Of a DNA stretch of 25,791 nucleotides, positions 1 to 12,417 are shown piece by piece (the stretch's first letter is position 1; every line of letters begins with the position of its first letter). This stretch comes from a virus, in IMG/VR virus record IMGVR_UViG_3300047195_000458, positions 1 through 25,791 of that record; one strand, 5' to 3'. A program made the translations under genes and the position numbers. The notes below the pieces were generated by a model. That model ran no database searches and was not told the DNA's origin. It saw only the letters and a list, made by a program, of their open reading frames with translations.

Positions 1-120
1 CTCAGTCTGGGACTCAGTCAGGGACTCAGTCTGGGACTCAGTCAGGGACTCAGTCAGGGACTCAGTCGGGGGCTCAGTCAGGGACTCAGTCGGGGGCTCA
101 GTCAGGGACTCAGTCGGGGG
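1..120 (+). repeat. 12-bp tandem repeat, ten copies
   Basis: Ten consecutive copies of a 12-bp unit (CTCAGTCTGGGA and variants with AGGGA or GGGGG). They vary almost only at the base after CTCAGTC (T, A or G) and in the last A/G. The array lies in frame in the gene ending at 337 and codes for a four-residue repeat Ser-Val-(Trp/Arg/Gly)-(Asp/Gly). It continues beyond the left edge, so total copy number is unknown. Copies 6, 8 and 10 share the GGGGG variant, giving a 24-bp higher-order period at the right end. Confidence 0.97.
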
Positions 121-337
121 CTATATAGGTTCATTCTTCAATCTAAAAAGAGAACAGTGGAAATATACAGAGAAGATAGAAACAACTGGTTATCCTTTCC
201 AATCTGGTGTTGATCTGTGGAATCTGGGTCTAGTTCCTTCTTTTGATGGCAAGACCTGGCGTCTCCATGCAGGAAAAAAAGCAAAGATCGTCTTTGAAAT
301 AACAAAAGACGACCTCATGAAAATCAAGGAGAAATAA
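2..337 (+). CDS. SVxD-repeat protein, 3' part
   Basis: Reading frame 2 is open from the left edge to TAA at 335-337. It starts with ten SVRD/SVWD/SVGG tetrapeptides and passes without a break into a globular tail containing YIGSFF, DLWNLGLVPSF and DGKTWRLH. From memory, unstudied phage, bacterial and archaeal proteins share this plan of SVxD repeats followed by a SSFF-type segment and a conserved VPSFDGKTWRLH-like segment; no biochemical role is known to me. The variable codon is TGG, AGG or GGG, so repeat drift swaps Trp, Arg and Gly. The start lies outside the window. An alternative frame of the repeat reads QSGT/QSGA with silent changes but stops at 126-128, whereas this frame runs on into a credible protein, so I prefer it. 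Confidence 0.75.
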   Translation, partial: SVWDSVRDSVWDSVRDSVRDSVGGSVRDSVGGSVRDSVGGYIGSFFNLKREQWKYTEKIETTGYPFQSGVDLWNLGLVPSFDGKTWRLHAGKKAKIVFEITKDDLMKIKEK

Positions 338-2645: not shown

Positions 2646-2669
2646 TAAATGACATCCTCCCAAACAAGT

Positions 2670-2683
2670 CCGACTAAAGTCGG
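2670..2683 (+). repeat. Left-end hairpin of IS605-like unit
   Basis: CCGAC-TAAA-GTCGG, a perfect five-base stem with a TAAA loop, flanked by GACATCCTCCC on the left and GGGTATCCC on the right. The layout matches the subterminal hairpins recognised by TnpA in this IS family. Confidence 0.55.
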
Positions 2684-2694
2684 GGGTATCCCAT

Positions 2695-2793
2695 ATGACT
2701 AAGAAATGTCCACATCCAGAATGTAAACCCTGTTATGAACGGTCAGAAAACCATGTCTATTTCTGCCCTCATTACAGACAATGTAGGAGTTGA
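2695..2793 (+). CDS. 32-aa Cys-rich miniprotein
   Basis: Short ORF starting MTKKCPHPECKPC and ending with CPHYRQCRS. It holds Cys at 5, 10, 13, 24 and 30 plus His at 7 and 26, enough for one zinc site. It lies wholly inside the IS-like unit between the left hairpin and the transposase leader. No clear ribosome site precedes the ATG. It may be a leader peptide, a host gene remnant or chance. Confidence 0.3.
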   Translation: MTKKCPHPECKPCYERSENHVYFCPHYRQCRS

Positions 2794-2890
2794 TGTAACA
2801 TGTCAGAACGCAAAGCATCTATCTTAAAATTATCGGTTCTTCACCGAGTAATATTAAGTGATGCTTTGCTGAAGCATCTGTCATGTTACA
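2794..2890 (+). promoter_or_regulatory. Long imperfect palindrome over the tnpA start
   Basis: Nested inverted repeats share nearly one centre: TGTAACATG (2794-2802) with CATGTTACA (2882-2890), GCAAAGCATC (2810-2819) with GATGCTTTGC (2860-2869), and TCGGT (2833-2837) with ACCGA (2843-2847). The outer arm contains the tnpA ATG at 2883. In RNA this would fold into a long stem hiding the start. Hairpins that block tnpA translation are known in IS200; here this is inferred. In DNA it could also be a TnpA target structure. Confidence 0.6.
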
Positions 2891-3440
2891 CAAATATCCG
2901 CACTTCAATCCAACAAAGCACAAAGTGGACGTTAAGATTGCTGTCGTCAGAAGCGGTTTTCACTGCAAACACAACATCAACTATCACTTGGTATGGATTC
3001 CAAAGTATAGGAAAACCGTTCTCACAGGAGATGTAAAAGTGGTATTGGAGAACATCATACGTGGTCAATGCAAAGACCTGGGACTCGATTGTCTTGCATT
3101 GGAGATAATGCCCGACCATTTGCATCTGTTTGTTGGTGCGAAGCCTACGCATCGTCCCTGTGACATCGTGCATCAACTGAAAGGCAACACAAGTATTCAG
3201 TTGCGTAGAGTGTTCCCTGAATTAAAATACTTAGGTTATCAACAGCATTACAAGCGGTTTCCAAGTCTCTGGGCAAGAGGTTACTACTGTGGTTCCGCAG
3301 GTCATGTGAGCCAAGAAGCGGTAGCTCGATATATTGCTGAACAGCAAGGCAAGAAGAACGTCTTTGAATATTCTATTTTCGGTAACAAAGACGTAAAAAT
3401 TGGTGACTTCACGCAAAGTAAACTGGAGGGATTTAATTGA
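2883..3440 (+). CDS. tnpA: IS200/IS605 family transposase TnpA (HUH, Y1)
   Basis: Single-strand DNA transposase that cuts and joins the subterminal hairpin ends through a 5'-phosphotyrosine link. Visible motifs: the family core NYHLVWIPKYRKTVL (33-47), the metal-binding HUH triad His79-Leu-His81 in MPDHLHLFV, LWARGYYCGS (129-138) and the nucleophile helix with Tyr150 and Gln154 (VARYIAEQQ). At 185 aa it exceeds the usual 135-155, with about 25 extra N-terminal residues and a C-terminal tail of about 30. All catalytic residues are present, so it may be active. The start lies inside the long palindrome. Its TGA overlaps the TTG start of the radical-SAM gene. Confidence 0.93.
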   Translation: MLHKYPHFNPTKHKVDVKIAVVRSGFHCKHNINYHLVWIPKYRKTVLTGDVKVVLENIIRGQCKDLGLDCLALEIMPDHLHLFVGAKPTHRPCDIVHQLKGNTSIQLRRVFPELKYLGYQQHYKRFPSLWARGYYCGSAGHVSQEAVARYIAEQQGKKNVFEYSIFGNKDVKIGDFTQSKLEGFN

Positions 3441-4282
3441 ACATCGGTTTGATTCAAGTTGACGGAAAATTACCAAATATTGCTCTGATGAAGTTATCAA
3501 AATACCACAAAGAAAAAGGAGATAAAGTAACTCTCATCGATCTTAGCACATTGGATATTGATAGATGGTATGGGTCAAAAATATTCATGGGTGGATCAGG
3601 CTACGATCTTAAAGAAAAATTACCAAAGGAAATCGAAGAATTGTCACCAGATTACGATCTATACAAAACAGATTATTCTATTGGTTTTACAAGTAGGGGC
3701 TGTATCCGTAATTGTGGTTTTTGTATTGTCCGAGAAAAGGAAGGTAATTTTACAGAAGAAGATATGAATTTTATTAAACATACAAAAGTAATTCTTTTTG
3801 ATAATAATTTCCTTGCATCAGGTAAATGTATTGAAAAACTAAATTATTTCATTGAGAACAAAATTAAAGTGTGTTTTAATCAGGGTTTAGATATTAGATT
3901 GGTAACGAAAGAAATTGCAGATGTTCTTAAAAATGTAAAATATTACGATCTGAAATTCAATAGAAGACGATTGTATTTTGCATGGGACGACCTATCATAT
4001 GAAAAATATGTTGTCGATGGTATCAACACTCTTGTTAAAAGTGGTATCAGATCAGAGCATTTAATGTTCTATGTTCTGTGTGGATTTAATACTACATTTG
4101 AACAGGATTTTTATAGGTTTAAAGTGTTGAACGATTTAGGTTGTCTTCCTTTTGTAATGCTCTACAACAATACACGAGATGTTAAATTAAGATATTTTTC
4201 AAGGTGGGTAAACAAACGATATTACAAGGTTTGTACGTTTGAAGAATATCTTAAACAAAAAACAAAAAAGGAGTTGATGTAA
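3437..4282 (+). CDS. Radical-SAM protein, phage-associated type
   Basis: 281-aa enzyme with the [4Fe-4S] motif Cys89-x3-Cys93-x2-Cys96 (RGCIRNCGFC). The N-terminal part (NIGLIQVDG, then PNIALMKLSKYH and GGSGYDLKEKLP) looks like a shortened cobalamin-binding-like Rossmann half. Later segments include NQGLDIRL and FAWDD. From memory this matches a radical-SAM family common in phages and gut-type metagenomes whose substrate is unknown. The start is TTG at 3437 with GGAGGG just upstream, inside the end of tnpA and overlapping its stop by three bases. The gene is visibly more AT-rich than tnpA. It fills the position of TnpB in an IS605 element and stops just before the right-end hairpin, so it may be transposon cargo. 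Confidence 0.85.
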   Translation: MNIGLIQVDGKLPNIALMKLSKYHKEKGDKVTLIDLSTLDIDRWYGSKIFMGGSGYDLKEKLPKEIEELSPDYDLYKTDYSIGFTSRGCIRNCGFCIVREKEGNFTEEDMNFIKHTKVILFDNNFLASGKCIEKLNYFIENKIKVCFNQGLDIRLVTKEIADVLKNVKYYDLKFNRRRLYFAWDDLSYEKYVVDGINTLVKSGIRSEHLMFYVLCGFNTTFEQDFYRFKVLNDLGCLPFVMLYNNTRDVKLRYFSRWVNKRYYKVCTFEEYLKQKTKKELM

Positions 4283-4312
4283 ACGAATGGACGAAACGAA
4301 AAACCAATTCAT

Positions 4313-4332
4313 CCCAATGATAAATCATTGGG
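4313..4332 (+). repeat. Right-end hairpin of IS605-like unit
   Basis: CCCAATGA-TAAA-TCATTGGG, a perfect eight-base stem, followed by TATTCTTGG. Same TAAA loop and same orientation as the hairpin at 2670-2683. It begins 31 bases after the radical-SAM stop and could also act as a terminator for that transcript, although no T-run follows. Confidence 0.6.
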
Positions 4333-4373
4333 TATTCTTGGACGGTATTATAAAAATAAAAGGAGAAAATAAA

Positions 4374-11201: not shown

Positions 11202-11333
11202 ATGGAAAAAAATCGTTTATGCCAGGGTGGTTGTGGTAAATTTGTTTATGGTAAACAATGCGCGGAGTGTAATAGAAAAGGGAGGAAACATAACCTCTCA
11301 AGTCTTTATAACAGGAGAAATAAAAAAAGGTGA
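11202..11333 (+). CDS. 43-aa zinc-binding miniprotein
   Basis: The product starts MEKNRLCQGGCGKFVYGKQC and continues AECNRKGRK, so Cys7, Cys11, Cys20 and Cys23 form a four-Cys site, followed by a strongly basic tail. This fits a small nucleic-acid-binding zinc knuckle. Its TGA overlaps the GTG start of the PIG-L gene by four bases (GTGA), and it carries that gene's AGGAGA site. Confidence 0.5.
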   Translation: MEKNRLCQGGCGKFVYGKQCAECNRKGRKHNLSSLYNRRNKKR

Positions 11334-12013
11334 ATAAGAACAAAATGACGATATTAATAATAGCAAGCCATCCAGATGATGAAGTTCTTGGTGCTGGAGC
11401 TACAATCGCAAAACTAACTAAAAAGGGTGATGATGTTTATCTATTGATCCTCGGTGAGGGTGTCACAAGCCGTGAGGGATGGACACAGCAGGAACTTGAC
11501 AGCCTGCATGAATGCATCGATAAGGCGAATAGCAAGATAGGGATATCAGAGGATCACATCATTGTTGAATCGTTCCCTGATAACAGGTTTGATACCGTGG
11601 CGTTATTGGATATCGTGAAAGCAGTCTCAAAAGTAAAGGATGTCGTCAAGCCTGATGTCATGTATACTCATAGCCCATATTGTCTGAACATCGACCATCA
11701 GCGTACCTATGAGGCGGTGGTGACAGCAACCCGACCTATGACCGATGAGACGGTGAAGCAGATATTCAGTTTTGAGATACCATCTAGTACAGAATGGCGT
11801 TTTCATCCCAGCAGGTTCACCCCTAATGTTTTTGTGGATGTGAAAGAAACCATCAGGTTGAAACTCGATGCATTGAATGAATACAAATCTGAGATGCGGG
11901 AGTATCCTCATCCAAGGTCTTTGTATGGTGTGTATGAGAATGCTCAACAGTGGGGGAAGAAAGTTGGTGTCCCATTTGCAGAGGTATTTGAATGTGTACG
12001 AATGGTAAGGTAA
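11330..12013 (+). CDS. PIG-L family deacetylase
   Basis: 227-aa zinc-dependent deacetylase of the LmbE/PIG-L type. Signature SHPDDEVLGAGAT (13-25) gives the His14, Asp16 and Asp17 region, and His114 with Asp122-His123 (YTHSPYCLNIDHQ) completes the metal site. Family enzymes remove the acetyl group from N-acetylglucosamine-type substrates. GTG start at 11330 is overlapped by the previous stop; ATG 11345 is an alternative. The downstream formyltransferase-like gene overlaps by 22 bases, so the two are probably translated together and may replace N-acetyl by N-formyl on an amino sugar. Confidence 0.88.
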   Translation: MNKNKMTILIIASHPDDEVLGAGATIAKLTKKGDDVYLLILGEGVTSREGWTQQELDSLHECIDKANSKIGISEDHIIVESFPDNRFDTVALLDIVKAVSKVKDVVKPDVMYTHSPYCLNIDHQRTYEAVVTATRPMTDETVKQIFSFEIPSSTEWRFHPSRFTPNVFVDVKETIRLKLDALNEYKSEMREYPHPRSLYGVYENAQQWGKKVGVPFAEVFECVRMVR

Positions 12014-12417
12014 AACTATTTTTTCCATATTATTCTTGGAAGATACCAAAAGAAACACATGAGAGATATGAATGCATCGCATTCCATATGACTGATCTCC
12101 CGTTTGGTCGCGGTGGTTCTCCATTGCAGAACCTTATCCTCCGAGGATTCACAGAGACAGTCATCACAGCTTTCCGAGTCACAGATGAATGGGATGCTGG
12201 TCCAATCTATCTGAAGCGTCCCTTGAGCCTGGATGGGACTGCGCAGGAGATATTTGACAGGGCGAGCAAAATCATTTATAATGACATGATTCCATTTATT
12301 CTGATGAACGATATTATCCCTACTCCACAGGAGGGTGAAGTGGTATTGTTCCATAGGATTAAGAGGAGTGAGTTTCCTGAGCCTGCGAGGATGTGGCAGG
12401 CATGGGGTTATAAATAA
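11992..12417 (+). CDS. Formyltransferase-like protein, short form
   Basis: 141 aa. It contains FHMTDLPFGRGGSPLQNLI (about 31-49), the counterpart of HxSLLPxxRG in formyltransferases, and ITAFRVTDEWDAGPIYLK (about 58-75) with the catalytic Asp of DxGxI, then LDGTAQEIFDRA. The usual Asn before the His is not present. Most formyltransferases carry a longer N-terminal Rossmann part; here the start (ATG 11992, GAGG eight bases upstream, inside the deacetylase gene) leaves only about 30 residues before the His. The gene is therefore a truncated or minimal variant. Pairs of PIG-L and this type of formyltransferase are known from bacteria and archaea, supporting an amino-sugar pathway. The substrate is inferred. 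Confidence 0.7.
   Translation: MCTNGKVKLFFPYYSWKIPKETHERYECIAFHMTDLPFGRGGSPLQNLILRGFTETVITAFRVTDEWDAGPIYLKRPLSLDGTAQEIFDRASKIIYNDMIPFILMNDIIPTPQEGEVVLFHRIKRSEFPEPARMWQAWGYK

Follow-up and report, generated by a model that had tools for sequence, protein, structure and literature searches.

A radical-SAM gene between IS200/IS605-type ends in a probably archaeal virus: a putative cargo-carrying transposon

The window, i.e. the whole stretch of DNA analysed here, is a viral contig of 25,791 bases that encodes a tyrosine integrase, primase, terminase, portal and head genes. It contains one copy of an element in which a tnpA gene and a radical-SAM gene are flanked by a left end and a right end of the IS200/IS605 type. 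The features of the element are as follows (positions in the window; strand; description).

2649-2652, plus strand: putative target and left cleavage motif ATGA, retained in the left flank; among near-identical ends at unrelated sites, identity starts at ATGA
2653-2691, plus strand: left end, comprising CATCCTCCC, an 8-nt 5' bulge, the hairpin CCGAC-TAAA-GTCGG (2670-2683), GGG and TATCC; recurs in 36 left ends
2695-2793, plus strand: mini-ORF of 32 codons between the left end and tnpA, Cys/His-rich (zinc-ribbon-like) by its sequence
2794-2890, plus strand: long hairpin over the tnpA start codon (z -7.4 as RNA), with a counterpart in L021
2883-3440, plus strand: tnpA, Y1 HUH transposase of 185 aa, H79-L-H81 and Y150 intact (PF01797, E 9e-34; alignment; clade support 100/100)
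3437-4282, plus strand: passenger, radical-SAM protein of 281 aa with the cluster motif CIRNCGFC, overlapping the tnpA stop (phrog_9298, E 3e-65; 59% identity to the L162 copy)
4304-4341, plus strand: right end, comprising the outer stem CCAA/TTGG, TTCAT, the hairpin CCCAATGA-TAAA-TCATTGGG (4313-4332) and TATTC (sequence; covariation in 30 copies)
4349-4353, plus strand: putative right cleavage site TATAA, the final bases of the element; TATRA lies 12 nt past TATYC in 39 of 48 copies, and 11 nt past it in the window

The original prediction had described the right hairpin as matching the left one in loop, flank and orientation, and the sequence agrees: both have a TAAA loop, lie in one orientation and are followed by GGG and TATYC. 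It had also stated that nothing separates tnpA from the radical-SAM gene, and the window sequence between the two genes indeed contains neither an end nor a third hairpin of the TAAA type. The radical-SAM gene stops at 4280-4282, and the right hairpin begins 30 bases further on. We refined the limits of the unit to 2653-4353, following the ATGA at 2649-2652, because IS608 and ISDra2 keep the target in the left flank (PMC5934647, PMC8612924); both cleavage sites are putative. The insertion site is intergenic, the right site is TATAA, and the predicted junction of an empty site is ATGA directly followed by AAATAAAAGGAG.

When folded singly, the window hairpins gave z-scores of +0.09 (left) and -2.0 (right), thus no support for the left hairpin from single-locus folding; weak by folding alone, they become significant by comparison with relatives, in which the left-end combination of AAATGACATNCTC and a TAAA hairpin recurs. 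No RNA match was obtained for the unit in an Rfam scan. Scans of viral contigs with the radical-SAM protein and with the window primase found no relatives, and a close relative of the window virus was absent from the collections scanned; hence these scans gave no empty site for this unit.

The window TnpA belongs to PF01797 (Y1_Tnp) and to NCBIfam transpos_IS200 (NF033573); the residues D78-H79-L80-H81 and Y150 are present, and H79, H81 and Y150 are invariant in an alignment of the three close TnpAs. The unit thus combines a Y1 HUH transposase that has its catalytic residues with subterminal hairpins of the same orientation at both ends (putatively recognized by TnpA), as in IS200/IS605 elements. 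The second gene of IS605 (tnpA plus tnpB) is missing, and the sole gene between tnpA and the right end is the radical-SAM gene. The stop of tnpA (TGA, 3438-3440) overlaps the start of the radical-SAM gene (TTG, 3437-3439), and a GGAGG sits within the 3' end of tnpA, both as predicted; translation of the radical-SAM gene would be coupled, from this ribosome site, to that of tnpA. Passengers overlap or closely trail the stop of tnpA, whose 3' end contains a ribosome site in most of the units collected here, and many passenger frames extend into the right end, where they stop inside it or shortly past it.

A hairpin that covers the start of tnpA is known in IS200. Its counterpart at 2794-2890 is a probable translation attenuator; L021 has a hairpin at the tnpA start or ribosome site as well (z -6.1), and other hairpin forms lie over the tnpA ribosome site in L007, L008, L018 and L019. 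The mini-ORF at 2695-2793 could, from its sequence, be a second passenger. An exact 14-nt direct repeat, AGGAGTTGATGTAA, was noticed at 2785-2798 (before the tnpA hairpin) and at 4269-4282 (end of the radical-SAM gene), which may represent two ribosome sites or a scar of capture.

The passenger is annotated 'radical SAM domain protein' in phrog_9298 and has the CxxxCxxC motif as CIRNCGFC. Proteins of phrog_9298 are found in Bacteroides phages, in Methanomassiliicoccales viruses and in others, and tnpA was annotated beside the gene in none of the five loci inspected; phrog_9298 is a common viral accessory gene to which no substrate is assigned. Related viruses with the radical-SAM gene at this locus and no tnpA, which would have spoken against a transposon, did not turn up; such phages have the gene at loci unrelated to this one, as would follow from the capture of a common viral accessory gene. 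A structural model of the protein (pLDDT 66) matched best the methylthiotransferase MtaB, and AprD4 ranked lower; the TM-score was low and the resemblance is at fold level only. The fold search yielded little beyond the radical-SAM fold. That the protein modifies nucleic acid is a guess.

For the TnpA tree, 52 rows were used, and L105 was omitted from the conclusions on account of a wrong-frame reading; further units were gathered by TnpA-profile searches and by right-end pattern searches. The 26 correctly read rows of the window type form one clade (support 100/100). The non-viral rows of this clade are mostly Woesearchaeota MAGs, plus Thermoplasmatota, Bathyarchaeota and two bacterial bins, and the viruses that contain the elements are therefore probably archaeal. 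The closest TnpAs in the first scan of viral contigs were those of L007 and L008 (62% and 66% identical to the window, respectively). The left end reads AAATGACATCCTC in both the window and L007 and AAATGACATACTC in L008, and a hairpin accompanies it in all three. A C5 DNA methyltransferase gene and then the right end come after tnpA in L007; in L008, the contig ends overlap, and tnpA runs on at the other end (L008/L017) into a PAPS-reductase gene, followed by the right end. Between the same ends, these three related TnpAs thus have passengers that are unrelated to one another. At least ten more clade units likewise have a gene that is bounded by tnpA on one side and by a same-type right end on the other. 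Contents of clade units are given below.

L018, L098, L099: tnpA, DNA methyltransferase, right end (PHROGs)
L100: tnpA, PAPS-reductase-like passenger, right end (phrog_424)
L101: tnpA, nuclease-like passenger, right end (phrog_984)
L103: tnpA, small ORFs, right end
L105: tnpA, N6_N4 methyltransferase, three small ORFs, right end
L106: tnpA, passenger of no assigned family, right end
L031 (MAG contig): frameshifted C5-methyltransferase-like gene
L034 (MAG contig): DUF2229 and BadF-type gene
L036: small ORFs left of tnpA; right end immediately after tnpA
L020, L021: tnpA only; right end 43-49 bases past tnpA

Cargo is less certain for the Woesearchaeota MAG copies, because their right ends lie 0.8-4 kb past tnpA. 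Left ends were not recognized in part of the units: those of L099 and of L101/L103 differ, and L100 and L106 start at contig ends. Next to the sister TnpAs L009, L012, L013, L048, L049 and L107, the following ORF begins like TnpB (read by eye); together with the varied genes of the clade units, this supports the proposal that a passenger enzyme has taken the place of TnpB. The TnpAs of L099 and L100 are 95% identical over 180 aa, and their passengers are unrelated except for a tail encoded by the right end; the DNA identity fades in the final codons of tnpA and returns at the conserved right ends. A passenger swap between these two units would, given the 95% identity, be recent.

Several observations were made on further units. 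Among the cellular members, L025 with L196, and L035 (MAG contigs), seem to have restriction-type genes in the interval from tnpA to a distant right end; the one in L035 is a type IIG restriction enzyme encoded on the opposite strand. In L046, a reverse-transcriptase gene (PF00078; 5816-6961) is flanked by a broken tnpA and a right end. In L036 (1200-1250) and L105 (3820-3870), GGTATATAAAGG lies immediately within the left end and resembles an archaeal promoter, and these two units have a similar small DNA-binding-like ORF ahead of tnpA.

For the majority of right-end copies, a tnpA is lacking within a distance of 3.5 kb. Of the 20 contigs with such copies, many of them fragments, 17 have no TnpA match whatsoever, and a full tnpA was absent from all scanned contigs (again many fragments) with tnpA-less cassettes. 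In L162, the left end is followed by a 28-codon frame ending in ECSEELKGQLKIGDFYG and a stop, a radical-SAM gene and the right end; the end of this frame is a TnpA tail (cf. ECPEELKGQLKLGDFFG in L036) and overlaps the radical-SAM start. Roughly 30-46 tnpA codons are left ahead of a methyltransferase gene in L141, L142 and L151, and the passenger follows directly after the left end in L127, L135, L153, L166 and the second L008 unit. On a plain reading of these sequences, tnpA would have been deleted inside units that already held their passenger.

The left-end cores of L135 and L162 are identical, and the right ends of L135, L162 and L166 are near-identical; this identity starts and stops at the putative limits of the element. 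The passengers inside these matching ends are a phrog_799 methyltransferase (L135), the radical-SAM protein (L162) and a C5 methyltransferase (L166). Among the cassette and passenger proteins scanned, a non-random sample, there were 14 DNA methyltransferases, two PAPS-reductase-like proteins with weak matches to SspD/BrxP, and two radical-SAM proteins. The recurrence of the tnpA and radical-SAM pair between the same ends, which had been proposed as a check, was found in part: relatives with these ends hold tnpA with varied passengers, and one of them (L162) holds the radical-SAM gene, but without a full tnpA. The empty sites also sought were not found; flank comparison among the loci compared gave no clean one (L131 and L136 differ beyond the cassette), and no strain-level presence or absence of a unit was seen.

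On the contig of L134 and L148 (L191), right-end-like sites occur three times and the left ends are of a variant type (ATAACACCTTCCC); the contig possibly represents several cassettes in one virus. In L131, L135 and L153, the frame of the upstream gene extends into the left end and terminates within it (with tails NDILP... or HDILP...); all three frames are apparently closed by this end.

The right ends share a general form: about 4-7 pairs make up the outer stem, which is followed by TTC(C/A)T, by an inner stem whose loop is mostly T(A/G)AA, and by TAT(C/T)C. Covariation of this double stem is strong: in 30 distinct copies, standard pairs fill 83.8% of the pair cells (56.5% in shuffles), and double changes occur in 123 cells, whereas shuffles gave 44.6 +/- 5.3 and slid controls no more than 33. 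The pattern occurs in 27 of 28 virus contigs, most of which had been picked by this pattern, and a reversed control gave 0. By a rough estimate, several of the 45 right-end pattern matches could be chance, and our claims are therefore limited to copies in which TATRA accompanies the stem and a loop of the T(A/G)AA type. The matches in L124/L155/L157, L123/L133 and L168-L172 look unrelated and were rejected.

The sub-motifs of the right end covary with the cleavage site: TTCAT/TATTC goes with ATAA in 7 of 7 copies and TTCCT/TATCC with ATGA in 39 of 41 (Fisher p 5e-7, with kinship ignored), and L018 and L166 break the rule. IS608 recognizes its cleavage site through a guide located 5' of the hairpin, together with triplets that involve the hairpin's 3' flank (PMC5934647), and the same logic likely applies to the right ends here. 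On the left, ATGA lies at the same position in most of the 36 ends listed and ATAA in the rest; most copies have ATGA followed at once by CAT at the left end, and TATRA downstream of the right hairpin at a spacing of 12 nt.

Right ends usually close in an ATGA that is the start codon of the next gene. The ATG of the right end opens a frame of at least 40 codons in 29 of 38 copies, compared with 413 of 1284 control TATGA sites (p 5e-8), and a Shine-Dalgarno sequence is present at 15 of 36 left flanks (against 22%; a modest enrichment). In L141 and L162, GGAGG directly precedes the left-flank ATGA and the gene past the right end starts with ATGA; to judge by these junctions, a start codon was apparently interrupted by the element and then restored.

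With a probability of roughly 0.86, positions 2653-4353 would constitute a single transposon of a cargo-carrying IS200/IS605 branch in viruses linked to archaea (through their probable hosts). The reading draws on the ends, the exchange of passengers, the tnpA-less and remnant forms, the right-end structure, the TATRA spacing and the start-codon junctions, all of which are read from sequence. TnpA would bind the left and right hairpins and excise and insert the unit as single-stranded DNA ('peel and paste'), and the radical-SAM passenger would fill the slot held by TnpB in the sister elements. Insertion would occur 3' of ATGA, in most viral copies a start codon; as the right end again closes in ATGA, the next gene would keep a start of its own. 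The stretch from tnpA to the right end would be where passengers are swapped, and tnpA appears to be frequently lost, leaving one-gene cassettes that are probably mobilized in trans and whose passengers may benefit the virus. The variety of passengers, the cassettes without tnpA and the start-codon target go beyond what had been predicted.

Three other explanations were weighed. Firstly, the units might be immobile relics, the radical-SAM gene having been captured once via a distant right end, with no movement today. Several tnpA copies are broken or cut down to tails, and the window holds one copy only; yet the window TnpA is intact in its HUH and Tyr residues and the L099/L100 swap is recent, which makes this unlikely, and even a relic would be an element of this kind, though inactive. 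Secondly, a tnpA-only insertion of the IS200 type might lie upstream of a resident radical-SAM gene, the right hairpin being a solo palindrome (PATE) or a terminator. IS200-type elements hold just tnpA, L020 and L021 are such clade members, and non-coding PATEs are common in haloarchaea (PMC3119063). This explanation lacks a right end where it needs one in the window, and at the clade loci with a right end, this end is downstream of tnpA in the same orientation, with differing genes between; near-identical ends also enclose the radical-SAM cassette L162 and other genes, so that we rate it very unlikely. Finally, a domesticated tnpA and radical-SAM operon, with TnpA as a single-strand nuclease for replication or defence and the hairpins as RNA regulatory elements, would accord with the translational coupling, with known domesticated Y1 proteins (TnpAREP; PMC8266576) and with the RNA-level interpretation of IS605 stem-loops next to Borrelia genes (PMC2775950), but is hardly credible given that the tnpA partner varies among relatives, that the ends have regularly spaced TATRA and enclose cassettes without tnpA, and that the radical-SAM family occurs in phages without an adjoining tnpA.

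The cargo-carrying transposon shares with IS608, ISDra2 and IS200 the Y1 HUH TnpA with a Y---Q tail, the hairpin over the tnpA start, subterminal hairpins in one orientation and a short left-flank target without duplication; it differs from them in the unrelated, exchangeable enzyme genes in place of TnpB, in the target ATGA, often a start codon, and in the outer covarying stem of the right end. In L152, an IscB gene with HEARO RNA, as in ISC elements, is closed off by a right end of this type, whereas the window unit has no IscB gene and no HEARO match (Rfam). Since the right-end type is shared with this IscB unit, the ends belong to a known family, and the cargo is the new part; the original prediction had listed an origin of the two ends from unrelated IS elements as an objection, and both are of one kind. 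IS200/IS605 elements are described as holding only genes for transposition and regulation (PMC8612924), and the literature searched, with incomplete coverage, gave no precedent for gene-bearing cassettes of this kind. PATEs are non-autonomous core-deletion products with IS605-type ends, at times with a 3' remnant (PMC3119063, PMC7290912); the non-autonomous derivatives here likewise keep IS605-type ends, but unlike non-coding PATEs retain one intact passenger gene, and the window unit encodes TnpA and the radical-SAM protein. IS605 stem-loops at lipoprotein genes of Borrelia plasmids are, similarly, hairpins beside genes without a transposase; they are presented as retained or RNA-level elements, and left-gene-right units with varied genes, as found here, are not described in the abstract of that study (PMC2775950).

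A wider reading, which could as easily fail as hold, is that of a mobile gene-cassette system of archaea-linked viruses, in which one-gene units with IS200/IS605 ends, carrying mainly DNA-modifying enzymes, would be moved by TnpA in trans via single-stranded DNA and inserted at ATGA start codons, sparing the start of the neighbouring gene. Integron gene cassettes are exchangeable single-gene units with structured single-strand recombination sites that are served by a tyrosine recombinase. The analogy extends to the exchangeable single genes and the structured single-strand sites; enzyme and target are different, and an array platform was not seen here. IS200/IS605 elements have been held to be minimal, with a transposase and often an RNA-guided nuclease only; exchangeable enzyme genes in place of the nuclease would mark TnpB and IscB as replaceable cargo. 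With other DNA-modifying genes carried by related elements, the unit points to a so far undescribed route of gene trading among viruses, and insertion of single strands at start codons, hardly harmful to the operon, would give a concrete route for the gain of viral accessory genes, e.g. methyltransferases.

Elsewhere in the window, a PIG-L deacetylase gene is followed by a formyltransferase-like ORF (11330-12417), possibly a sugar-modifying pair, and coding repeats (frames LSQGLSRG and SAAWSAES) were observed in two viral contigs, i.e. in the window (1-213) and in L007 (7600-7950).
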